Assembly: GCA_014859375.1 (NCBI GenBank)
Contig: JACUUH010000025.1
Span: 1-33,610, forward strand
Direction: 5' to 3'
DNA length: 33,610 nt
From: Gammaproteobacteria bacterium
GTDB taxonomy: Bacteria > Pseudomonadota > Gammaproteobacteria > Nitrosococcales > Methylophagaceae
Within the stretch, counting starts at the first letter, position 1, and each line of letters begins with the position of its first letter. The translations under genes and the position numbers were made by a program. The notes below the pieces were generated by a model. That model did no database searches. It had not been told where the DNA came from and saw only the letters and a program-made list of their open reading frames with translations. This document shows, one piece after another, positions 15,156 to 33,484 of the stretch.

Positions 15156-16172
15156 ATGGATCTTCGCCTTGCGCTGATAATTGTTGGTTTGGTTTACATA
15201 CCAATTCAAGGCGTTCACGCTCTAACATTTGAACACTGTTTGCAACAACAGTTTGAACAATCAGACGATAATAAAACACTCGGTGAGTTGCGCCGCTATT
15301 GCCAAAAAGCGGTTATTGATGACAACGTTGCGAGTATCACTAATCAAGATGAGTTAGTAGGATCGTTTGAAACATCTGCGCTGACACAACGCTTAAAGTT
15401 TGAGCAGAGAGTCGATCAAAATCCGTTCACATTGTTACCACATAAGCCAAATTATATTTTGATCAGTAATAATCTTGCTTCACCCAATGAGCAGCCTTTT
15501 CAACAGGCTTTTCCTGATAGAGCGATCAATATTCAGCCTTGGGAAACCAAGTTTCAGATAAGTTTGAAATTACCAGTCGCGCGAGGCTTATTTGACGGCA
15601 ACGGTGACTTGTTTGTCGCCTATACCAACCGCTCGTTTTGGCAGCAATTTAATAAACAAGGATCATCTCCATTTCGAGATTCGAATCATGAGCCCGAAAT
15701 ATGGCTATCTTTCAAAAATGATAAATCAATTTTTGGGCTACATAACTCAATTATCCGAACAGGTGTCGCACATCAATCCAATGGACAGTCTGGTTCACTG
15801 TCACGTAGTTGGAATAGAATCTATGCCGACTTTATTTTTGAACAAGGTAACTGGTATTTTTCATTAAAACCGTGGTGGCGAATTCCTGAGTCAGCTAAAA
15901 ACGATGATAATCCTGATATTGACAACTATTTAGGCAATTTTGAGTTCGGCGCTTTGTATAAAAAAGGCAAGCATAGCTTTGATGTTTTAGCGAGAAACAA
16001 TCTTGACTTTGGTGATAATCATGGCGCTGTTCAACTTGGCTGGAGCTTTCCGATTAGTAATAATGTTCATGGTTATGTGCAATGGTTTAACGGCTATGGC
16101 GAAAGTTTGATTGATTATAATTCCTATTCTAATAGTATAGGTTTAGGTATTAAGCTGACCGACTGGTTATAA
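15156..16172 (+). CDS. pldA: Outer-membrane phospholipase A (OMPLA)
   Basis: Beta-barrel enzyme that hydrolyses misplaced phospholipids in the outer leaflet of the outer membrane, active as a calcium-bound dimer. The 338 residues start with a signal peptide (cut likely after HA at about residue 22) and a longer-than-E.-coli periplasmic N-terminal stretch to about residue 95. The catalytic triad is in place: His206 and Ser208 in AHQSNGQSG and Asn220 in SRSWNRIYAD, with the same +2/+12 spacing as E. coli. Alternating aromatic strands continue to a C-terminus ending GLGIKLTDWL. It stands 25 bases after ychF; downstream lies IS debris. Confidence 0.92.
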   Translation: MDLRLALIIVGLVYIPIQGVHALTFEHCLQQQFEQSDDNKTLGELRRYCQKAVIDDNVASITNQDELVGSFETSALTQRLKFEQRVDQNPFTLLPHKPNYILISNNLASPNEQPFQQAFPDRAINIQPWETKFQISLKLPVARGLFDGNGDLFVAYTNRSFWQQFNKQGSSPFRDSNHEPEIWLSFKNDKSIFGLHNSIIRTGVAHQSNGQSGSLSRSWNRIYADFIFEQGNWYFSLKPWWRIPESAKNDDNPDIDNYLGNFEFGALYKKGKHSFDVLARNNLDFGDNHGAVQLGWSFPISNNVHGYVQWFNGYGESLIDYNSYSNSIGLGIKLTDWL

Positions 16173-16189
16173 AAGTGCAAAAACTTCTT

Positions 16190-16615
16190 GATATTTTATC
16201 CTTCATTAAGGTGACAGTTCGATAGATACCGAGCTTAAATCCTTTCATTGCTAATGCGACTTTCATGCGTCGTCTACCATAGGTTGAGCCGGTTTCAACA
16301 GCAATGTCTTTGATAGCCGTCATGATCTTTGCTTGTTCAGCCCTGACTGATTTTGGGCGAATTTGAGCATAATAGGTGCTTTCACTCAGCTGGAATAATC
16401 AATACAGTTCGTAAACTGAATAATCAGGGTTGGCCTTCTTCATATCGATAATCAGCTTAAACTGCTGTTTTCTCGGGCATCGATGTCAGCAGCCTTGTTT
16501 TAAGATTTCATTATCCTTTTGGCTCGCCATAACTGCTTTTCTAAGTCCTGTATTTTTTGTTGGTCGGGCGTTAATGCGTTCTTATCGTGCTGTGTATGAC
16601 CGTTTATTTCTTCTA
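16190..16615 (-). pseudogene. IS3-family transposase remnant (OrfA end and OrfB start)
   Basis: Minus-strand reading gives the OrfA tail LTPDQQKIQDLEKQLWRAKR followed after a one-base shift by NEILKQ. It then gives the OrfB helix-turn-helix region with the stretches MKKANPDYSVYEL, STYYAQIRPKS and ETGSTYGRRRMKVALAMKG, ending near YRTVTLMKD. This is the classic IS3 layout. It has lost the DDE catalytic core and both inverted repeats and carries internal stops and frameshifts, so it is dead. It sits exactly between the conserved pldA block and the accessory lipid cluster. From 16616 to about 16770 I see nothing recognisable. Confidence 0.8.
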
Positions 16616-16772
16616 ATTTATGATCACCTGTTTTAGAATTTAATGTCTTAACAGAATGAAAAGTCACCGCTATCATTCACTTTTTGGAACTTGCTCCAAG
16701 CCAAATCAGTCAATCCTACAACATTATTTTGCTACCTTCGTCACAGATCTCCTCTCGCCGCTATAACTGTAG

Positions 16773-16810: not shown

Positions 16811-16903
16811 ATGATGGCGAGCATTGTCATTACAAACGGACATGACTCAGTGGTCACACAGCTTGATCTTGTGACGCAACTGCATGGTTGGTCATATGAA
16901 TAA
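16811..16903 (+). CDS. Small ORF (30 residues) coupled to the FAD protein gene
   Basis: A strong ribosome site (TAGAGGAGAT) directly precedes ATG-ATG, opening MMASIVITNG and ending in LHGWSYE. The product has a short internal repeat (VVTQL, LVTQL) and no signal peptide or recognised domain. Its stop at 16901-16903 overlaps the start of the FAD-protein gene at 16896, whose own ribosome site is poor. Translation of this ORF may therefore deliver ribosomes to the next gene, or it may be the remnant of a lost upstream gene. Function unknown. Confidence 0.45.
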   Translation: MMASIVITNGHDSVVTQLDLVTQLHGWSYE

Positions 16904-18188
16904 AAAAATTGCTGTAATAGGCTCTGGTATTGCTGGCATGGCAAGTGCGTGGCTGTTAAATAAGCATTACCAGGTCACTTTAATTGATAAAAATGCCTAT
17001 ATAGGTGGGCATACCAATACGGTGTCTGTTACTGATGTCGAGACCGGTAAACATTTGGCTGTTGATACAGGGTTTATCGTCTATAACGAGCCCAATTATC
17101 CTAATTTAGTTGGGTTATTTAATGCCTTAGGTGTGCAATCTCGCCCAACATCGATGTCATTCTCAGCTTCTATTTTTAACACTGGTTTAGAGTATGCCGG
17201 TAGTGATCTCAACACCTTATTTGCTCAGCGAAGAAACCTATTTTCGCCCCGCTTTTTGAAGTTAATCTATGACATTCTAAAGTTTAATCGCGTTGCAAAA
17301 GCCCTGATTAACGATACGACACTTAGCTCTGAACTGACGCTGGGTGAGTTTTTACAAATGCATAACATTGGCAAAGCAATGCAGAACGATTATTTACTGC
17401 CAATGGCGGCGGCTATTTGGTCATGTCCGCCCAGTCAAATGGCTGCCTTCCCTGCTAAAAGTTTTGCACAATTTTTTGATAATCATGGCTTGCTTAATGT
17501 TAAAGATAGACCTCAATGGCGAACGGTAAATGGTGGAAGCCAAGCTTATGTTGCCAAACTACTCGATTCTTTTTCTGGCCAAATAATCACTAATAATGCT
17601 GTAGTAAAGGTTGATCGAACAGCAGATCAGGTAACACTTACGCTTGCAGATCGACAACAACTCGAGTTTGATGATGTCATTATTGCTACGCATGCTGATG
17701 AAGCCCTAGCACTGTTAGCGCAAGCAACTAATGATGAGCAGCGATATTTATCTGCATTTCGTTATCAACAAAATGACACCTATCTCCACACCGATGAGCG
17801 GTTGATGCCCAAGCTTAAAGCGGTATGGTCTTGCTGGAATTATATTGCTGACAACAGTGATGATATGACCCCAGCCGTGTCGGTAAGTTACTGGATGAAT
17901 GCATTGCAAGGCCTTGATACAGCTTCTGATTTTTTTGTCAGTTTAAATCCTATAGTGGCTATCAATCCCGCTAAAGTTGTCAAGCAAATACAGTATATGC
18001 ACCCTGTTTTTGACAATGCCGCGATCGCAGCCCAGAAGCAACTTGAATGTCTCCAAGGTAAACAGCACACATGGTATGCCGGTAGTTACTTTGGATATGG
18101 TTTCCATGAAGATGCATTAAGCTCTGCCGTATCGGTTGCCAAAGCATTTGGTATTCAGATCCCGTGGCAAGAGGGATTGTATGAGTAG
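16896..18188 (+). CDS. FAD-dependent amine-oxidase-like oxidoreductase (lipid-cluster flavoprotein, UfaD-like candidate)
   Basis: About 430 residues from ATG 16896, which gives MNKKIAVIGSGIAGMASAWL, the dinucleotide-binding fold at the very N-terminus; the in-frame ATG at 16884 would add four residues. The flavin motif continues as LIDKNAYIGGHTNTV, and a C-terminal FAD block (TWYAGSYFGYGFHEDAL) is present. This COG2907-type flavoprotein is regularly found with DUF1365 and a Cfa-like methyltransferase. In Rhodobacter such a flavoprotein (UfaD) desaturates a methylated acyl chain on the way to furan fatty acids. That function is inferred here from gene context. It overlaps the next gene by eight bases. 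Confidence 0.85.
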   Translation: MNKKIAVIGSGIAGMASAWLLNKHYQVTLIDKNAYIGGHTNTVSVTDVETGKHLAVDTGFIVYNEPNYPNLVGLFNALGVQSRPTSMSFSASIFNTGLEYAGSDLNTLFAQRRNLFSPRFLKLIYDILKFNRVAKALINDTTLSSELTLGEFLQMHNIGKAMQNDYLLPMAAAIWSCPPSQMAAFPAKSFAQFFDNHGLLNVKDRPQWRTVNGGSQAYVAKLLDSFSGQIITNNAVVKVDRTADQVTLTLADRQQLEFDDVIIATHADEALALLAQATNDEQRYLSAFRYQQNDTYLHTDERLMPKLKAVWSCWNYIADNSDDMTPAVSVSYWMNALQGLDTASDFFVSLNPIVAINPAKVVKQIQYMHPVFDNAAIAAQKQLECLQGKQHTWYAGSYFGYGFHEDALSSAVSVAKAFGIQIPWQEGLYE

Positions 18189-18963
18189 TCAATTATATTT
18201 CGGCAAGGTGATGCATCAACGCATGATGCCGATGCGCTATCGCTTTAGCTATAAGGTATTTGGCCTATTACTTGATATTGATTCCATTGAGCAAGAAGCC
18301 CATGCAATGAAGTGGTTCAGTTATAACCGCTTTAACTTGTTGAGTGTAAAAACCAAAGATCATGGTGCTTGTAATGAGTCCTCATGGCGTTCGTGGGTTG
18401 TCAACATGCTAGCTGATAGTGGTATGAAAGATATTGGTAAAGTCCAACTGTTATGTTTTCCAAGAGTGCTTGGATACAGCTTTAACCCGCTGTCTGTTTG
18501 GTATTGTGAAAATACAGCGGGGGAAACCATTGCCATCATAAGTGAGGTGCGTAATACCTTTGGCGGCCTATATCATTATGTTCATCATAATAATGGTGAT
18601 GCACTGAGTTGGCCTGTTGAGTGTATCGCTGATAAACGCTTTGATGTTTCACCTTTTATCAATATGAACCAGCAATACCATTTTAAATTCACTAAGTCAC
18701 AGTCAGCACTCACTATCCTAATTAATGAGTATCAAGATGACGTTCTTCATTTAATTGCTTCGCAAACTGCCGTGACGGAAGCAATGACAAACACTAAGCT
18801 GCTACGCGCATTCTTTATGATGCCGATGATGTCATTCAAAATAATACTGATGATTCATTGGCATGCGTTAAAAATTTGGCTTGGTGGCGGTAAATTTCAC
18901 TCCTACGACAAAGCAAACCAACACGAGGTCAAAAGCGAATGGCTAGTCAAAACGCCGAAGTAA
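18181..18963 (+). CDS. DUF1365 family protein
   Basis: About 260 residues from ATG 18181 (MSSQLYFGKVMHQRMMPMRY); this start overlaps the previous stop by eight bases. An upstream in-frame ATG at 18136 would lie deep inside the flavoprotein gene and is less likely. Typical DUF1365 (COG3496) blocks are present: HQRMMPMRYRFSYKVF at the N-terminus, RVLGYSFNPLSVWYC, EVRNTFGG and the FSFxF-like segment before residue 190. The biochemical role of this family is not known, but it is almost always encoded between the flavoprotein and the methyltransferase of this cluster. The 3' end overlaps the next gene by 25 bases, indicating coupled translation. Confidence 0.88.
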   Translation: MSSQLYFGKVMHQRMMPMRYRFSYKVFGLLLDIDSIEQEAHAMKWFSYNRFNLLSVKTKDHGACNESSWRSWVVNMLADSGMKDIGKVQLLCFPRVLGYSFNPLSVWYCENTAGETIAIISEVRNTFGGLYHYVHHNNGDALSWPVECIADKRFDVSPFINMNQQYHFKFTKSQSALTILINEYQDDVLHLIASQTAVTEAMTNTKLLRAFFMMPMMSFKIILMIHWHALKIWLGGGKFHSYDKANQHEVKSEWLVKTPK

Positions 18964-20156
18964 CCCTGTTACCCAACTCAAATGCACCTATCGCAATTAG
19001 GTTGCTATACAAACTGCTATCTAATTGTAAAGTCGGCACTCTTCATATCAAGTTGGGTGAGGAAGTTTATCTTTTACAGGCACAGCAATCTGGGCCAGAG
19101 GCTCATATTGAGCTGCATAATCCACTTAAAATGATCAAGCGTTTCAGCCGGCATGGTGAAGTTGGCTTGGCGGAATCATATATGAGTGGTGACTGGGAAA
19201 CAGAGAACTTATCCACTCTACTTTATTGGGGCGCACTTAACTTGGAAAGTTTGTTTGATGCACTACAGGCAAACTTTTTTGTTAAATGGTTTAACCGATT
19301 TCGTCACCTGATTCGTCATAATAGTGAACAGGGAAGTAAACGTAATATTGCTGCACATTATGATCTTGGTAATGATTTTTACGCGCTGTGGCTAGATTCG
19401 ACAATGACCTATTCGAGTGCAATATTCTCATCAGAAGGCCAGCCACTTGAGCAGGCACAAATAGGTAAATACCAACAACTACTGGACTCGTTGAATGCCA
19501 AACCCGGCGAGCATATTCTCGAAGTTGGCTGTGGTTGGGGAGGTTTTGCCGAATATGCAGCTCAACGTGGCTATCGTGTGACAGGCATTACCCTATCGAC
19601 TGAACAATTGGCGTGGGCGCAAAAACGTATTTCAGATGCTGGCTTAAGCCATTTGGTTGAACTCAAACTTCAAGACTATCGTCACCTCACCGATGTGTTT
19701 GATCATATTGTGAGTATTGAAATGTTTGAAGCAGTTGGTGAACGTTATTGGCCTGAGTATTTTACTATGTTGTATGCCCGACTCAAGCCAGGCGGCAGAG
19801 TCGCCTTGCAAGTGATTACTATTGATCATAACTATTTTGATTATTACAGGCAAACGGTCGATTTTATTCAGCTTTATATCTTTCCCGGTGGCATGTTGCC
19901 ATCCCCGCAAGTTTTTGCTGAGCATGCACATAAGGCAGGCTTGGTTATCGATAAAGCAACGGATTATGGTCATGATTATGAACAGACACTAAAACTATGG
20001 CATAAGCGTTTTAACGAGGTTATTCATGATATTGAAGCCCTTGGCTATGATCAACGCTTTATCAAAATGTGGCGTTACTATTTGTCGTATTGTGAAGCTG
20101 GATTCCGTAGCGAACACACAGGGGTTTATCAGTACCTAATGTCAAAACCCATTTAG
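18939..20156 (+). CDS. Cfa-like SAM-dependent fatty acyl phospholipid methyltransferase (UfaM-like candidate)
   Basis: 405 residues with the N-terminal lipid-binding domain of the cyclopropane synthase family and a Rossmann methyltransferase domain. The SAM loop is VGCGWGG at 196-202, followed by VTGITLSTEQ. By eye alignment, E. coli Cfa Cys139 (YSCA) is Ser160 here (YSSA), and the HTIG histidine (His266) is replaced within VITI, while the glutamate of IEMFEAVGERYW is kept. Cys139 and His266 bind bicarbonate during ring formation, so this enzyme may methylate without closing a cyclopropane, as UfaM does in furan fatty acid synthesis. It acts at the inner membrane surface. The MFS gene begins at the next base. 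Confidence 0.88.
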   Translation: MASQNAEVTLLPNSNAPIAIRLLYKLLSNCKVGTLHIKLGEEVYLLQAQQSGPEAHIELHNPLKMIKRFSRHGEVGLAESYMSGDWETENLSTLLYWGALNLESLFDALQANFFVKWFNRFRHLIRHNSEQGSKRNIAAHYDLGNDFYALWLDSTMTYSSAIFSSEGQPLEQAQIGKYQQLLDSLNAKPGEHILEVGCGWGGFAEYAAQRGYRVTGITLSTEQLAWAQKRISDAGLSHLVELKLQDYRHLTDVFDHIVSIEMFEAVGERYWPEYFTMLYARLKPGGRVALQVITIDHNYFDYYRQTVDFIQLYIFPGGMLPSPQVFAEHAHKAGLVIDKATDYGHDYEQTLKLWHKRFNEVIHDIEALGYDQRFIKMWRYYLSYCEAGFRSEHTGVYQYLMSKPI

Positions 20157-21452
20157 ATGCTAATCAAAAAGATACATTATTGGTTTTATGGTTTGCCCGC
20201 CTTGCCGCTGGCAGCATTAGGGTTGCCACTTTATATCTATCTGCCAACGTTTTATGCTGATCAACTTGGCTTGGGTCTTACCCTTGTAGGCACTATCCTG
20301 TTGATTTGTCGTATTACCGATGTTATTTCAGACCCATTGATTGGTTTGCTATCGGATTGGTTGCCCATTAAATCACGACGAAAATGGTTAATGGCTATCG
20401 CCACGCCTTTATTGTTAGTGGCCGTGTGGGCCTTGTTCATACCCCCAGCTAATGCTGGTATGTGGTGGTTATTCAGCTGGAGTATTTTGGTCTATTTAGC
20501 TTGGAGTTTGTTAACCTTGCCCTACACCGCATGGGGGGCTGAATTATCGACAGATTATGATCAGCGCAGTGTTATTACAGCAAGTAGAGAAACCTTCGTA
20601 CTTATTGGCACATTGATTGCCGCTGGGCTACCGCTAGCCATGGGATTAACCAGCGACCAACCTGGTCAAGCATTAAGGCTCCTCGCACACTTTTTAGTGG
20701 TGATGTTACCCGTCACCATTTTGATCTGCTTATTCAAGGTTAAGGAAGAATTCACGCCTTCTCGCCCGATTAACTTTCTAGCAGGCTTATCATTATTGAA
20801 CGACAATCATCTATTTAAGCGCTTGTTATTTGCTTACTTAATGAATGGAATAGCCAATGGATTGCCGGCTACCTTATTCTTATTATTTGTCAGTTATGTT
20901 TTGGTGGCACCCGAGCAATTTGGTATGTTGCTCTCTGTTTATTTCTTGAGTGGCTTGTTGGGTTTACCTCTGGGACTTGCCTTATCTAAACGGTTCAGTA
21001 AGCACCGAATTTGGAGCATATCGATGCTGTGGGCGGCCGTTATTTTTATGTGGGTGCCTGTTCTAGGTGAAGGTGATGTCATTGCCTTTTTAGTGATTTG
21101 TATTTTATCTGGTCTTAGTTTGGGTATAGACATGGCCTTGCCAGCATCGATCCAAGCCGATGTTATCGATATCGATAATGTTAAAGGTGGCGGTCAACGC
21201 AGCGGGTTTTTCTTTGGCATTTGGGGCATGGTAACCAAATTGTCGTTGGCATTAGCCGTTGGAATTGCCTTTCCTTTATTAAGCTTCTTGGGTTTTGATA
21301 CCATCCATACCGTTACAGTCAATAATACAATCGCTCTCTCTTTACTCTATGGCTTAATGCCTATTCCGTTTAAACTAATTGCTGCATGGTCGATGTGGAA
21401 ATTTCCTCTCGATCGACAACAACACTTTGTGCTTCGCCAACAACTTGATTAA
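20157..21452 (+). CDS. MFS transporter, GPH (glycoside-pentoside-hexuronide) type
   Basis: 431 residues with about twelve hydrophobic segments and the cytoplasmic loop DVISDPLIGLLSDWLPIKSRRKW, matching the D-P-x-x-G-x-x-SD pattern of the MelB/GPH family. A transporter of this family also sits in the sigma-E-linked lipid cluster of Rhodobacter, so the gene is probably part of the unit and not a sugar importer. A lipid or lysolipid substrate is only a guess. The ATG follows the methyltransferase stop with no gap, and a hydrophobic C-terminus ends ten bases before the lipoprotein gene. Confidence 0.85.
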   Translation: MLIKKIHYWFYGLPALPLAALGLPLYIYLPTFYADQLGLGLTLVGTILLICRITDVISDPLIGLLSDWLPIKSRRKWLMAIATPLLLVAVWALFIPPANAGMWWLFSWSILVYLAWSLLTLPYTAWGAELSTDYDQRSVITASRETFVLIGTLIAAGLPLAMGLTSDQPGQALRLLAHFLVVMLPVTILICLFKVKEEFTPSRPINFLAGLSLLNDNHLFKRLLFAYLMNGIANGLPATLFLLFVSYVLVAPEQFGMLLSVYFLSGLLGLPLGLALSKRFSKHRIWSISMLWAAVIFMWVPVLGEGDVIAFLVICILSGLSLGIDMALPASIQADVIDIDNVKGGGQRSGFFFGIWGMVTKLSLALAVGIAFPLLSFLGFDTIHTVTVNNTIALSLLYGLMPIPFKLIAAWSMWKFPLDRQQHFVLRQQLD

Positions 21453-21462
21453 GGAACTTCTA

Positions 21463-21987
21463 ATGAAAAAATACTTCCTATTGTTGCTTCTTGTTTTATC
21501 TGGGTGCAGCAGTATGTCTATAGAAAGCTACCGTGACAGTTCACCGCGTTTTATTGTTGAAGATTATTTTGTTGGCCAAACACGGGCTTGGGGTATCTTT
21601 CAAGGTCGAAATGGTCAAGTTGAGCGACAGTTTACGGTTGATATTATTGGCCGAATGGAGGGCGATAAGTTAATTTTAGAAGAAGATTTTCTCTATGCCG
21701 ATGGCCAGCGTGATCGTCGTGTGTGGACTATTACTAAACGTGATGAACATAACTATGAAGGTCATGCCGCTGATGTAATTGGTGCGGCATCGGGTAAGGC
21801 GTTTGGCAACGCGCTTAATTGGTCTTATACGATGGACCTACCATACAAAGATGGCACCGTTAAAGTGAAGTTTGATGACTGGATGTTTTTACAGCCTGAT
21901 GGCGTGTTAATCAACAAGGCAAAAATGACCAAGCTGGGTATCTACCTTGGTGAAGTGACGCTGGTGTTCCAAAAAGAGGAGCAATAA
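21463..21987 (+). CDS. DUF3833 lipoprotein
   Basis: 174 residues from ATG 21463, chosen for its AAGGAAC ribosome site and for the lipoprotein signal that starts there (lipobox LSGC, Cys15). The mature protein follows the DUF3833 pattern: FIVEDYFVGQTRAWGIFQGR, RQFTVDIIGRMEGDKLILEE, DGQRDRRVWTI and LNWSYTMDLPYKDG, a predicted lipocalin-like beta barrel. The family has no proven activity; a lipid-carrying role at the membrane is plausible from its constant association with this cluster. The next gene follows after three bases. Confidence 0.85.
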   Translation: MKKYFLLLLLVLSGCSSMSIESYRDSSPRFIVEDYFVGQTRAWGIFQGRNGQVERQFTVDIIGRMEGDKLILEEDFLYADGQRDRRVWTITKRDEHNYEGHAADVIGAASGKAFGNALNWSYTMDLPYKDGTVKVKFDDWMFLQPDGVLINKAKMTKLGIYLGEVTLVFQKEEQ

Positions 21988-21990
21988 AAC

Positions 21991-22536
21991 ATGCGTTTAC
22001 TTGTCTTTTTTACCTTTTTATTTTTAATGGGCTTGGCTCAGGCTACGCCAATAAGTCATCCTAATTTTAAATCGGCACGAGGGGAGCTTGAGTTAAAAGC
22101 AACTGCTACTGCCAAATGGTTAGCATTTGTCTCGGTATATGACATTGGACTTTATGCGAATCCGAATGCTAAAACTGATGATGTACTTCATACAAACATG
22201 CCGTTATCGCTTGAAATATATTATTGGGTGAATCTAAAGAAGGAACAATTAATTGAGGCAGCGGAGGTTGCTTTGGGGCGACAACATTCCGATAAAACAC
22301 GTCGACAATTTCAGATCTTTGTCGATGAGTTACATCATTTTTATCAAGATGTTGAGCAGGGGGATAGATTTAGAATGGATGTTAGACCGGATTCTGGTTT
22401 AGCGCTGTATTTTAATGATGAATTACGTTACCAAAATGCCCGCTTAGACTTTGCAAATTACTACATAGGACTGTGGCTGGCTGAAAATCCATTATCAGAT
22501 AAAGTCAGAGCATCATTACTTAACTGGCCACTTTAG
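21991..22536 (+). CDS. Secreted chalcone-isomerase-like protein
   Basis: 181 residues with an N-terminal signal peptide (hydrophobic FFTFLFLMGLAQA, cut near residue 18). The mature part resembles the bacterial chalcone isomerase-like domain: a strand ending WLAFVSVYDIGLYAN, PLSLEIYYWVNLKKEQLIEAA, then a long helix and GLALYFNDELRY. The domain binds fatty-acid-like ligands in other proteins of the fold. It is the last gene of the rightward cluster. Its last 17 bases overlap the end of the NTF2-like gene on the other strand. Confidence 0.8.
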   Translation: MRLLVFFTFLFLMGLAQATPISHPNFKSARGELELKATATAKWLAFVSVYDIGLYANPNAKTDDVLHTNMPLSLEIYYWVNLKKEQLIEAAEVALGRQHSDKTRRQFQIFVDELHHFYQDVEQGDRFRMDVRPDSGLALYFNDELRYQNARLDFANYYIGLWLAENPLSDKVRASLLNWPL

Positions 22537-22960
22537 TCGCGCTTACTTGGCGTTGAATAAACCGAAGTAAAGCACCAATGATCGGCAGTTTCATATAAAA
22601 TTGTTCACTGGCATCCCAATAGTCACTATGTTCTGATACCAAGCCTTGCTGATTAAAAACAACTCTGCTTATACCAACTAATGTCATGCCTTTGCTGTTG
22701 ATTTGAGCGCTAAATTGCCACTTAATATAAGCAATATCATTGTTCAATAGCGCTTCATCAACACGGAAGCTTGGATTTTTCACGGTAGTGAACATATGCT
22801 CAAAAATATGACGAATTTTGTCTAAGCCGTGAACGTCATTAAAAGGGTCTTTGAAGTGGGCGTTTGATGTGAAAAAGCGATCTAAGTTGACAAGATCATC
22901 CCTTTTCATATTTTCAAACAACGCTACATAATCATTTAACACTTGTTGATGGTTTGCCAT
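22520..22960 (-). CDS. NTF2-like (SnoaL-type) protein
   Basis: 146 residues of the alpha+beta cone fold: an N-terminal helix VALFENMKRDDLVNLDRFF, the conserved FKDPFNDVHGLDKI segment, then a curved sheet (IAYIKWQFSAQINSKG, VSEHSDYWDASEQFY). These proteins are small enzymes or ligand-binding accessories; no specific reaction can be read. NTF2-like and SDR genes accompany the flavoprotein/DUF1365/Cfa cluster in other proteobacteria, which supports membership here despite the opposite strand. It starts six bases after the SDR stop and is co-transcribed with it. Confidence 0.85.
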   Translation of the reverse strand: MANHQQVLNDYVALFENMKRDDLVNLDRFFTSNAHFKDPFNDVHGLDKIRHIFEHMFTTVKNPSFRVDEALLNNDIAYIKWQFSAQINSKGMTLVGISRVVFNQQGLVSEHSDYWDASEQFYMKLPIIGALLRFIQRQVSATKVAS

Positions 22961-22966
22961 GACCCG

Positions 22967-23722
22967 CTATTTCCCAGTGATTTTTGAGACAATATAGAAA
23001 TACCAGCGATAGGGTAAGCAGCGTAATAACTTCACGCTATAAGTAAAACGCTTTGGAAAGGTAATTTCAAAACTATCATTATCTAAGGCATTTATTATTT
23101 CTTCGGCCGCCTTTTCTGCTGAAATTTGTGCTGGCATCTTGAAATCGTTTTGGTCGGTTAACTGAGTAGATACAAAACCGGGGTTGACTACTCGCAGTAA
23201 TACGCCTTCTTTTTTGAGGGGAATATGTAACGATTCAGCAAAATTAATCAATGCTGCTTTAGTTGCACCATAGGGTGCTGCATCGGGTAAGCCACGATAA
23301 CCCGCGACACTCGACATCATTAAAATTTGTCCTTTATGTGCCGCTTTCATTGCTGGCAACGCACTGGCCAGACCATTTATTACACCGAGGTAATTGACCG
23401 AGTTTAGTTTGTAAATCAAATCTAAGTCGAACTCTTGAGCGGGCATTGGCGTGTAATCACCAGCATTCAGGATAACTAGAGATGGGCAGCCCCACTGATT
23501 TAGGATGGTATCAAACACCGTTACATTTGCTGCCTTGTCGGTCACGTCAAGTGTCAGATAGTCAATTGATTGATGTTCGTCCGACAGCAACTTAAGTTTA
23601 GATGTTGTCCTGCCAGAAATAATGACATGCCAACCTAATCTCGTTAAAGCTATCGCTAGGGCTTTGCCTATGCCTGAACCACCACCGGTTATCCATGCTA
23701 ATCTGTTTTTTTCAGCAATCAT
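22967..23722 (-). CDS. Short-chain dehydrogenase/reductase
   Basis: 251 residues of the classical SDR type. The NAD(P) motif TGGGSGIG lies near residues 12-19, NAG at about 85, the catalytic Ser in MMSSVAGYRG near 133, and the YxxxK pair in APYGATKAALINFAESL near 148-152. Arg in the SGRTTSK turn after the second strand favours NADPH. The C-terminal hydrophobic segment (LRCLPYRWYFYIVSKI) suggests membrane contact, consistent with a lipid substrate. It leads a two-gene unit with the NTF2-like gene. Confidence 0.9.
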   Translation of the reverse strand: MIAEKNRLAWITGGGSGIGKALAIALTRLGWHVIISGRTTSKLKLLSDEHQSIDYLTLDVTDKAANVTVFDTILNQWGCPSLVILNAGDYTPMPAQEFDLDLIYKLNSVNYLGVINGLASALPAMKAAHKGQILMMSSVAGYRGLPDAAPYGATKAALINFAESLHIPLKKEGVLLRVVNPGFVSTQLTDQNDFKMPAQISAEKAAEEIINALDNDSFEITFPKRFTYSVKLLRCLPYRWYFYIVSKITGK

Positions 23723-31632: not shown

Positions 31633-32527
31633 TTACAGGCAATAAAAAGGGGTTGCCAAAAAATGGACTGAAGGCTCCTGCTCCCTAATATCTCGGCTAT
31701 TTCGAGCAAGATTCCATGACTTTTTATAATCGAACGGTGAATTTGGATTGGTGCTAGACGGAAAGATCAAGCCGTTAGCGATTTGGCAGTAATGGGCGAG
31801 AAGATCGAGTATTGGCGCGGGAAGAGGTGTGGATCGGAACGCCATTTTTTGTTTTATCGATCGAAAGCAAACCTCGGGTAAAATAAACATCGGACCATCG
31901 AAGGCCTAGCAAATTTCCTTTTCGCATGCCAGTTGAAATAGCAATCAAAAAATGAACGTAAAAACGGCCACCGATGGTTTTACATGCAGTTATCAGCCGT
32001 TGTTTTTCATTGTCTGAAAAAAACCTTACCCGTTGATTGTTAAGCGGTTTATTGCGGATTGGTTTAACCGGATTGACTGTTATATATGTTCGTTGATTGT
32101 CTTCATTTTGAATGAGCGCAAAGTTAAAAACTGAGGCAAGGATCGCTCTATATTTGTTATGCGTCGCTGGGGTTGATTTTTTCCATGTCCGTAGCAGAAC
32201 ACGGCGATCATCAGTGGTTATTTTGTCTATTTTTTGTGAGTCAAAATGACGAAAAAAGCGAGAGACGGCTGTCAGTCGGACGGTGTCCGTACCCGTCCAC
32301 TTGCGCATATATTCATCTGCCAATTGTGCAAAAGTGATGTCACAAGGCTTTTTGCCGGTGACGGCAAAATTTTCAATGTCCGCTAAAAAACGAGCTGCCC
32401 ATTCGGCAACATCTCGCCTACGCCTGAATGTTTTTGTCTTAAAGTTACGTGATTCGTGGGTGATAGTGGCAACGTAATGGACATCGCCTGATTTGAGTGT
32501 TTATTTAGTGATGAAATAACCAGCCAT
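31633..32527 (-). pseudogene. Tyrosine recombinase/phage integrase, disrupted
   Basis: A tRNA-linked integrase starting at ATG 32527 (good GGAGAT ribosome site). After MAGYFITK comes an in-frame TAA at codon 9, then open reading resumes with KSGDVHYVATITHESRNFKT and a core-binding domain. The catalytic domain begins with ISTGMRKGNLLGLRWSDV (first catalytic Arg in TGMRKGN). A one-base shift near 31835-31840 separates KTKNGVP from STPLPAPILDLLAHY, and the frame ends before the HxxR box and catalytic Tyr. At least two or three lesions make it inactive. It runs away from the 3' end of tRNA-Met, the usual island layout. Confidence 0.85.
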
Positions 32528-32637
32528 ACTAATCTCCAATTCATGGCTATTTCTAAAGTAACTATATAAATTAAATATCAGTACGCAGCTGTACAAGGCT
32601 AATCTTCCTGAAAGCCTTACCCTGCAAGGGTTTTGTT

Positions 32638-32714
32638 TGGTGGCTATGGGTGGATTCGAACCACCGACCCCATCATTATGAGTGATGTGCTCTAACCAAC
32701 TGAGCTACATAGCC
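32638..32714 (-). tRNA. tRNA-Met (CAU), elongator
   Basis: Minus-strand cloverleaf with acceptor GGCTATG/CATAGCC, D arm GCTC/GAGC, anticodon stem ATCAC-TCATAAT region giving anticodon CAT, T arm GGTGG-TTCGAAT-CCACC, discriminator A and encoded CCA. It closely resembles E. coli elongator tRNA-Met (metT). The perfect 1-72 pair excludes initiator tRNA. The 3' end faces the integrase pseudogene 111 bases away, marking it as the likely attachment target. Confidence 0.93.
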
Positions 32715-32728
32715 ATGTGAAGCAGGGA

Positions 32729-32757
32729 ATTGTACGTTTGTATAGATAAAATATCAA
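32729..32757 (-). promoter_or_regulatory. Promoter of tRNA-Met
   Basis: On the minus strand TTGATA (32752-32757) and TACAAT (32729-32734) are 17 bases apart, a near-consensus sigma-70 promoter. It would start transcription just ahead of the tRNA, whose 5' end is at 32714. Confidence 0.7.
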
Positions 32758-32952
32758 GAAGTTCCTCCACTTTTATCAAGGCAATCACATGTAGAGGTCT
32801 AATAAAAGTGAAGTAATTTATAGCCTATAATTTTATAAATTTATTTTGTTGCGTGTTAAAGGTGCCTAACCCTGACTCATATAGTACGAAAGAAATTAAC
32901 GGTATCGAGGACTGATTTAGAAAAGAAATACTAGAAAAAAGTCACAAAGGGC

Positions 32953-32980
32953 TGAACAATTTTTTTTTTGTGTGTATAAT
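32953..32980 (+). promoter_or_regulatory. Promoter of tRNA-Leu
   Basis: TGAACA (32953-32958) and a perfect TATAAT (32975-32980) are separated by 16 bases that include a run of T. The tRNA 5' end follows ten bases later. Between 32758 and 32952 I see no feature. Confidence 0.7.
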
Positions 32981-32989
32981 TGTCGGAAT

Positions 32990-33076
32990 GCCTAGGTGGT
33001 GAAATTGGTAGACACAAGGGACTTAAAATCCCTCGCCTTCACGGGCGTGCCGGTTCGATTCCGGCCCTAGGTACCA
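32990..33076 (+). tRNA. tRNA-Leu (UAA)
   Basis: Class II tRNA of 87 bases with a long variable arm (CGCCTTCACGGGCGT). Acceptor GCCTAGG pairs with CCTAGGT (G1-U72 wobble), anticodon loop CTTAAAA (anticodon TAA), T arm GCCGG-TTCGATT-CCGGC, discriminator A and encoded CCA. The truncated integrase at 33116 lies just beyond its 3' end, so this tRNA also looks like an integration target. Confidence 0.95.
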
Positions 33077-33084
33077 ACAAATTC

Positions 33085-33113
33085 AGGCACTTACGTAAGT
33101 AGGTGCCTTTTTT
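33085..33113 (+). terminator. Rho-independent terminator after tRNA-Leu
   Basis: AGGCAC and GTGCCT (with flanking pairs) form a stem around TTACGTAAGTAG and are followed by TTTTTTG. It terminates tRNA-Leu. Its AT-rich loop is also palindromic (TTACGTAA). Confidence 0.8.
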
Positions 33114-33115
33114 GT

Positions 33116-33484
33116 TTAAGCAGCCTGTACCGTATTTGTACCGTGAGGACCTTCTCCCACCAGTACGTTTCCAACAAATTGCTCCAAGTGTGTCGAATCA
33201 AAATGGGCATACTTTTCGACCATCGATAATGTTTTCCAGCCACCCAATTCTTTCAGAACATAAATCGATGTGCCGTTCTGTACATGCCATGATGCCCACG
33301 TATGGCGTAAATCATGCCAGCGAAAGTTTTCAATTCCAGCCTGCACTAATGCTTTTCGCCAATCCTGATTATTCGGATTCATAATTGGCTTACCATTTCG
33401 TACAAAGACATACGCTGGATCGGCGCCTCTCGCAAGCCTTAAGACCCTCAAGGCATCTTCATTCAACGGCACCAATTTCAGCAT
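33116..33484 (-). pseudogene. Tyrosine recombinase C-terminal fragment
   Basis: 122 residues carrying only the end of the catalytic domain: WHDLRHTWASWHVQNG (the HxxR box), then LKELGGWKTLSMVEKYAHF, with the second His/Trp position and the catalytic Tyr in EKYAH. The core-binding domain and first catalytic Arg are missing; the open frame begins at KLVPLNEDALRVL, which in full integrases lies past the first Arg. The 5' part was lost, probably at the junction near 33480, so it is inactive unless complemented. Its stop lies 40 bases from the tRNA-Leu 3' end. Confidence 0.85.

Follow-up and report, generated by a model that had tools for sequence, protein, structure and literature searches.

A predicted furan-fatty-acid gene cluster and its accessory genes in a gammaproteobacterium of the Methylophagaceae

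Introduction

Bacterial synthesis of furan fatty acids has been described in Rhodobacter sphaeroides and Rhodopseudomonas palustris, and a gene cluster of the same type is analysed here in the window, that is, the whole stretch of 33,610 nucleotides of contig JACUUH010000025.1 from a gammaproteobacterium of the Methylophagaceae (contig C77 of a 2.35 Mb draft genome, in 106 contigs and 96.7% complete). In R. sphaeroides, UfaM converts cis-vaccenate into 11Me-12t-18:1 (Lemke 2020, PMC7380195). The 10t,12t diene is produced by UfaD (RSP1091), which is classed as a flavoprotein because an NAD-FAD-binding domain is predicted in it, and UfaO (RSP1090), which carries DUF1365, forms the furan with oxygen derived from O2 (PMC7380195). 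Further genes lie behind ufaO in this operon (RSP1089, RSP1088 and RSP1087, coding for 402, 186 and 245 amino acids), while ufaM is located at a separate chromosomal site, and a chrR mutant shows an increase of the pathway (PMC7380195). The R. palustris genes RPA2571-2570-2569 code for UfaD, UfaO and UfaM and are sufficient for synthesis when placed in R. sphaeroides (PMC7380195). Furan fatty acids have also been reported from Shewanella, Marinomonas and other marine gammaproteobacteria (PMC3528120), and Halomonas sp. YLGW01 carries consecutive ufaD-ufaO-ufaM genes, whose UfaM yields 11-methyloctadec-12-enoate in Escherichia coli (PMC12089945). Clusters of ufa genes controlled by MerR/LitR regulators are known outside the genus studied here; the class II LitR clusters of Pseudomonas are light-related regions with genes for photolyase, short-chain dehydrogenase/reductase (SDR), FAD oxidoreductase and UfaM (PMC9758184).

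The window contains the same three enzyme families as R. palustris and as R. sphaeroides RSP1091-1087 plus RSP2144, in the R. palustris order (PMC7380195), and its trio is consecutive, as in Halomonas, the gammaproteobacterium in which UfaM activity was shown by expression in E. coli (PMC12089945). It differs from R. sphaeroides in that ufaM is inside the cluster, no chrR was found in the window, and genes for a DUF3833 lipoprotein and a chalcone-isomerase-like protein are added; the genes behind R. sphaeroides ufaO were compared by position, not by family. A plasmid cluster of Azoarcus sp. KH32C (L054) contains all eight families of the window cluster in one block and, like it, has no rpoE-chrR pair in the region; unlike the window, it has a divergent MerR gene with a B12 domain beside ufaD, another order of accessory genes, and SDR and NTF2-like genes co-directional with the rest. 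Compared with the Pseudomonas LitR clusters, the genome to which the window belongs has its RudS-MerR-phr genes on another contig, and its ufa genes lack a convincing operator. The cluster itself is thus ordinary, because its core pathway is already known.

The UfaD-UfaO-UfaM Core

Judging from protein families, gene order and residues, the cluster very probably serves to build a methylated furan fatty acid on membrane phospholipids and to handle the lipid so formed. The three enzymes, a CMAS methyltransferase, an FAD-dependent desaturase and a DUF1365 protein, are all present by Pfam match and lie adjacent in the published D-O-M order. UfaM would methylate a phospholipid acyl chain at its cis double bond to give a methylated trans-monoene, UfaD would turn this monoene into a conjugated methyl-diene, and UfaO would close the furan ring with one oxygen atom from O2; the resulting furan chain may scavenge singlet oxygen or radicals. 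The initial annotation had described a lipid-modification cluster of the furan-fatty-acid type, an assignment that these family matches and the R. palustris gene order support, and the eight genes that it named were borne out in order, strand and family by Pfam and by the coordinates of the open reading frames (ORFs). It had also considered the role of DUF1365 to be undescribed, which was wrong, since UfaO, the furan-forming enzyme, carries this domain (PMC7380195).

The arrangement recurs among relatives. DUF1365 was found in 18 of the 59 relatives searched and, within the genus, in 11 of 29 genomes (own genome included); all 11 carry the eight families of the window cluster in identical order, so that the eight-gene arrangement is not due to chance. 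Thiothrix lacustris (L064) also has the eight families in this order. In other gammaproteobacteria (L020-L023, L035 and L036) an FA_desaturase gene is located 5' of UfaD (PF00487, Pfam-scanned in L020 and L035), and some have DUF2878 3' of UfaM; the desaturase could supply the olefin substrate. One of them, a relative from the same taxonomic order, appears to have a decaying trio region (L036:8154-12312), with a stop within the DUF1365 frame and a second DUF1365 piece downstream.

The UfaO locus survey listed 80 loci: 40 from SAR11 (Pelagibacteraceae), 4 from this genus and 36 from others. UfaD-UfaO-UfaM are present in 40/40 of the SAR11 loci listed (within L077-L135), accompanied by DUF3833 in 39 and by an SDR in 38. 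Position 266 of the SAR11 methyltransferases, discussed below, is Gln in 39/39 rows tested. Among the papers listed in literature searches, none dealt with furan fatty acids or UfaM in Pelagibacter or SAR11.

The Methyltransferase

The residues and tree place of the window methyltransferase (METHYLTRANSFERASE) indicate that it is not a typical cyclopropane synthase. At positions 139, 239, 266, 268 and 317 (E. coli Cfa numbering, used throughout) it has Ser, Glu, Gln, Ile and Tyr. Among 96 cluster-linked methyltransferases, encoded directly 3' of UfaO, Gln occupies position 266 in 95 and Ser occupies position 139 in 85, while Glu239, Ile268 and Tyr317 are invariant. These 96 rows represent 90 distinct sequences, those shorter than 330 amino acids having been dropped; four genus loci (L057-L060) are, as judged by length and position, the same contigs as L025, L029, L034 and L033 and were included in the 96 rows and excluded from the tree and the genus counts. 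Stand-alone CMAS proteins, with E. coli Cfa and the second Cfa of the own genome among them, have Cys139 in 19/19 and His266 in 18/19. The exceptions to this residue mark are L065, with His266, the solo row L178, with Gln, and the 11 cluster-linked rows with a residue other than Ser at position 139.

Cys139 of Cfa belongs to its bicarbonate site. The bicarbonate ligands of E. coli Cfa are Glu239, His266 and Tyr317, and mutation of ligands lowers activity (PMC11387697); window UfaM retains Glu239 and Tyr317, and its ligand set is incomplete by the change of His266 to Gln. We infer that this change fits an enzyme that loses the proton from the neighbouring carbon and so leaves a methylated double bond.

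A tree of 87 rows agrees with this division. The window protein groups with its 10 genus mates (100/100), and a clade of 61 rows (100/98) contains all 59 cluster-linked tree rows, the window protein included, plus two others, whereas E. coli Cfa and the own-genome Cfa fall outside; 6 of the 39 SAR11 cluster-linked rows were taken into the tree. A verified UfaM sequence was not among the rows, and the grouping with characterised UfaM therefore rests on gene order, residues and proxies, namely synteny and the Paracoccus cluster L049, which adjoins rpoE-chrR.

The Transporter and Accessory Genes

The gene following ufaM encodes an MFS_2/GPH protein whose closest solved relative by sequence is MFSD2A, the sodium-dependent lysophosphatidylcholine symporter 1 (86 bits, E 2e-23, against 34 bits for MelB); unlike MFSD2A, it is bacterial and encoded inside a biosynthetic cluster, and its substrate is a prediction. 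A profile of 23 cluster transporters gives 162 bits for MFSD2A against 102 for MelB, and the pattern is reversed in two E. coli sugar-type controls, UidB (MelB 129, MFSD2A 63) and YagG (MelB 166, MFSD2A 76). Asp55, Asp59 and Lys377 (MelB numbering), residues with roles in the MelB transporter, are retained in 33/33 cluster transporters. The protein may be a cation-coupled lipid or lysolipid symporter that acts after synthesis. Among the papers listed in literature searches, none was seen from its listing to connect bacterial relatives of MFSD2A with furan lipids.

DUF3833 is predicted to be a calycin-type barrel. Its model (predicted local distance difference test, pLDDT, 93) is a ten-stranded up-and-down barrel that matches calycins (Foldseek, VIA), with Z scores of 15.2 for BFA1, 14.6 for DUF3598, 13.2-14.0 for nitrobindins and 12.8 for CpeS over 128-142 aligned residues. 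A designed transmembrane barrel also scores 15.7, and the matches therefore speak for the fold class without pointing to a ligand. phmmer searches against the PDB with DUF3833 and with the chalcone-isomerase-like protein gave no credible match. In the 59 genomes, DUF3833 is present in 12/18 UfaO-positive and 0/41 UfaO-negative relatives (Fisher p 1.7e-8, uncorrected for kinship). Chalcone_3 proteins also occur outside the cluster, and several genomes lacking UfaO have higher-scoring matches. Proteins with the chalcone-isomerase fold are known as fatty-acid binders, and a dioxo-ene is the oxidised form of a furan fatty acid. The DUF3833 lipoprotein and the chalcone-isomerase-like protein might carry the acyl lipid in the periplasm or at the outer membrane, and oxidised lipid might be processed by the SDR/NTF2-like pair.

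A wider proposal, speculative and rather unlikely, is that the eight genes form a complete make-and-deliver system. The furan would be built in the inner membrane; the outer membrane would then receive it, as lysolipid or free acid, by way of the MFSD2A-type symporter, the secreted carrier of chalcone-isomerase fold and the DUF3833 calycin lipoprotein, while the oxidised (dioxo-ene) form would be recycled by the SDR/NTF2-like pair. As a separate observation, enzymes that can make or cleave lysophospholipids adjoin the cluster in different genomes: pldA in the window (15156-16172) and, in a genus mate (L026:881-4670), a GDSL lipase with ABC/FtsX genes.

Alternative Readings of the Cluster

If the methyltransferase were an ordinary cyclopropane synthase, the cluster product would be cyclopropane fatty acids only. 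Its match to CMAS and its long match to the NCBIfam cyclopropane synthase model (272 of 400 bits, below the cut-off) fit this idea, as does the finding that E. coli expressing Halomonas ufaM also contained cyclic fatty acids (PMC12089945), but the window protein, which shares with Cfa the Pfam family and residues Glu239, Ile268 and Tyr317, belongs to another clade and has Gln and Ser in place of His266 and Cys139, and a canonical Cfa that possesses all five Cfa residues is encoded separately in the genome, making such a product very improbable. The pathway could instead be active with another end product, such as the methylated diene, another oxidised acyl chain or another chain length, if UfaO or UfaD had diverged. 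UfaO is only 23-48% identical to its relatives outside the genus; on the other hand, the trio keeps its linkage and its order at most loci examined, with a UfaM match in 32/36 of the listed loci outside SAR11 and the genus and in all 40 from SAR11, and 23 columns are invariant in every row, the window's included, of a 47-row UfaO alignment in which no row is a verified UfaO, which renders a diverged product decidedly unlikely. A role of the MFS_2 transporter in sugar or glycoside symport, unrelated to lipids, also seems quite unlikely: it matches the GPH family model (158 of 231 bits, below the cut-off), but MFSD2A is its closest solved relative, two sugar-type symporters give the opposite pattern, and it lies within the lipid cluster in all 11 genus copies.

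Several observations weigh against the synthesis and subsequent handling of a furan lipid as proposed above. A separate tally was kept of nine more CMAS rows, which are from the broken L036 locus or do not adjoin UfaO; 6 of them have Cys and 3 have Gly at position 139, while at position 266 there are 8 with His and one with Gln. The tree covers methyltransferases, with no counterpart for UfaD or UfaO, and contains no R. sphaeroides or R. palustris sequences; the test proposed in the initial annotation, whether the methyltransferase falls outside the UfaM group, was to that extent partly run, and both residues and tree placed the protein inside the cluster-linked group. The UfaO model (pLDDT 89) resembles calycin folds weakly (best Z 7.3), and its cofactor cannot be named because these matches are middling. 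Concerning the transporter, the diverged Paracoccus protein beside its ufa genes has no PDB match, an MFS_2 protein is found not only in 11/11 UfaO-positive genus genomes but also in 5/18 UfaO-negative ones, and the loss of the MelB sugar residues D19/D124 is uninformative, because UidB and YagG lack them as well. DUF3833 is absent from 6/18 UfaO-positive relatives. Finally, the accessory roles are unproven, since single deletions of RSP1087, RSP1088 or RSP1089 leave the fatty acid profile unchanged (PMC7380195), although a post-synthetic role predicts exactly that.

Regulation and the Upstream Boundary

On its 5' side ufaD is preceded by pldA (PLA1 family), a degenerate IS3-family remnant on the minus strand, of which the OrfB part alone gives a Pfam match (HTH_21, 28.8 bits, cut-off 28.1), and then about 220 non-coding bases. 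Synteny breaks at this edge, similarity to the DNA of two sister species beginning at the ufaD start, and the ychF-pldA adjacency is also found in a genus mate without ufa genes. The initial annotation had noted that rpoE/chrR was missing and that an IS3 remnant was located exactly at the upstream boundary, and had taken the two together as suggesting a separation of the cluster from its regulator. The absence in the window (searched with four-sequence hidden Markov models for rpoE and chrR) and the presence of a remnant near ufaD at a synteny break were confirmed, but the loss of rpoE/chrR through the remnant was not supported. The comparison of homologous neighbourhoods that it suggested was run and revealed neither rpoE nor chrR in the flanks of the 11 genus copies; for the ten mates these flanks extend 1.2-8.4 kb upstream of ufaD and contain no similar IS3 remnant. 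ChrR was not detected in the own genome at E <= 0.1, nor at the family cut-off in the 29 genus genomes, 12 of which give weaker matches, mostly to the cupin part only and not counted as ChrR. The genes upstream of the cluster in the nearest sister are one for FtsX and, by size and order, those for an ABC protein and a GDSL lipase, so that there is no sign of a lost regulator. The 820-amino-acid protein encoded beside RudS-MerR-phr in the own genome was considered as the counterpart of the FtsX/YbbP neighbour of the sister clusters and rejected; direct search gave no ortholog, and by Pfam it is a GGDEF-EAL protein.

The recurrence of these families beside rpoE-chrR, also stated in the initial annotation, is common and not universal. 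Among the 36 listed UfaO loci outside SAR11 and the genus, rpoE plus chrR are found in 9, a chrR-like gene without rpoE in 6 more and a MerR gene in 6, and neither rpoE nor chrR is present in the flanks of any of the 40 SAR11 loci listed. In eight plasmid copies, rpoE is accompanied by ChrR or another anti-sigma gene in L049, L050, L051 and L053, a MerR gene is present in L052 and L054, and L055 and L056 have neither.

A different form of control is suggested by the own genome, which contains an operon coding for RudS (TudS-DUF1722), MerR and the photolyase Phr on contig C76 (L157:7282-10518), preceded by a LitR-like operator. Pfam scans of four genus MerR proteins show only the helix-turn-helix domain and, in contrast to the Azoarcus MerR, no B12-binding domain. 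Within the genus, MerR is present in 10/11 UfaO-positive and 3/18 other genomes (p 2.6e-4, uncorrected). A likely operator, TATACA-N12-TGTATA with 0-1 mismatch, precedes MerR or its operon in 11/11 loci, a figure that is not an independent control, because the motif was derived from those loci; its agreement with the published class II LitR consensus is independent (PMC9758184).

Two explanations of how the cluster is controlled were weighed. That an IS3 event cut it from an rpoE-chrR pair and left it unregulated would account for the synteny break and the remnant just 5' of ufaD; as stated, however, it is largely refuted and hardly credible, given that the flanks covered (1.2-8.4 kb upstream for the ten mates) contain rpoE/chrR in 0/11 genus copies, ChrR reaches the cut-off in 0/29 genus genomes and the 40 listed SAR11 loci likewise lack the pair in their flanks. 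Direct control by a LitR-type MerR, a light-sensing system encoded elsewhere in the genome, is possible, though on the unlikely side. In Pseudomonas, phrB and ufaM are among the light-induced genes under the control of a class II LitR system, ufaM being 25-33 fold up in light (PMC9758184); the own genome has RudS-MerR-phr, MerR co-occurs with ufa genes in the genus and, in two genus mates, is separated from ufaD by 2-5 kb, and L025 has a two-mismatch operator match of different spacing (N8) about 30 bp before ufaD. Against this, the correctly spaced operator (N10 between heptamers, up to 2 mismatches) was found neither in front of ufaD, whether in the window or in the 10 mates, nor in front of the SDR gene, save one two-mismatch match in L026 that lies inside the FtsX gene, about 430 bp upstream of SDR.

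Alignment of the ufaD upstream regions of the window and its genus mates gave no common promoter element. A sigma-70 scan found 18 sites against 23.1 in shuffled sequences, thus no excess, and 12 terminator-like sites against 6.3.

Gene Layout

The features of the locus are collected in Table 1. The flavoprotein start is placed at the position where the starts of ten genus mates align, and 16811-16898 is accordingly non-coding upstream sequence; the gene series within the limits first annotated (16811-23722) holds, with its start corrected to 16899. With refined starts, the UfaD/UfaO and UfaO/UfaM junctions are overlaps of 8 and 25 nt in ORF coordinates. Downstream of UfaM the rightward genes are spaced by 0, 10 and 3 nt, and the chalcone-isomerase-like gene and the converging NTF2 gene overlap tail-to-tail by 17 nt. 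At the right end of the window, two integrase-like ORFs (read from translations) and two tRNA genes (31775-33484) suggest a mobile-element insertion site.

Table 1. Features of the predicted furan-fatty-acid locus, in window coordinates.
Feature	Position	Strand	Basis
Degenerate IS3-family transposase remnant, between pldA and ufaD	~16174..16676 (limits approximate)	-	OrfB piece HTH_21; OrfA part by eye
ufaD-like, putative FAD-dependent desaturase of methylated acyl chain	16899..18188 (ORF from 16884)	+	Amino_oxidase PF01593, E 1e-18
ufaO-like DUF1365 protein, predicted O2-dependent furan-forming enzyme	18181..18963	+	PF07103, E 2e-70; model pLDDT 89
ufaM-like, putative S-adenosylmethionine-dependent acyl methyltransferase	18939..20156	+	CMAS PF02353, E 3e-86; residues; tree
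MFS_2/GPH transporter, MFSD2A nearest solved relative	20157..21452	+	PF13347, E 2e-73
DUF3833 lipoprotein, predicted calycin-type barrel	21463..21987	+	PF12915, E 2e-66; lipobox LSGC read from sequence; model pLDDT 93
Chalcone-isomerase-like protein, signal-peptide-like N-terminus (read from sequence)	21991..22536	+	Chalcone_3 PF16036, E 1.5e-17
SnoaL/NTF2-like protein	22520..22960	-	PF12680
SDR	22967..23722	-	PF00106, E 5e-40

Conclusions

The new points of this locus are the residue mark of UfaM, the MFSD2A-like transporter, the barrel predicted for DUF3833 and the association of this family with UfaO, and the occurrences in SAR11. Position 266 above all, together with 139, offers a new and testable mark that parts cluster-linked UfaM from the cyclopropane synthases of the same Pfam family. 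DUF3833 gains a fold prediction and, within the 59 genomes, was seen only alongside UfaO. For the transporter, a member of a sugar-symporter family, the predicted lipid substrate is likewise new and testable, and the make-and-deliver system, if true, would give MFSD2A a bacterial counterpart that is linked to one defined lipid. The presence of the trio in SAR11 bears on the origin of furan fatty acids in the marine food web.

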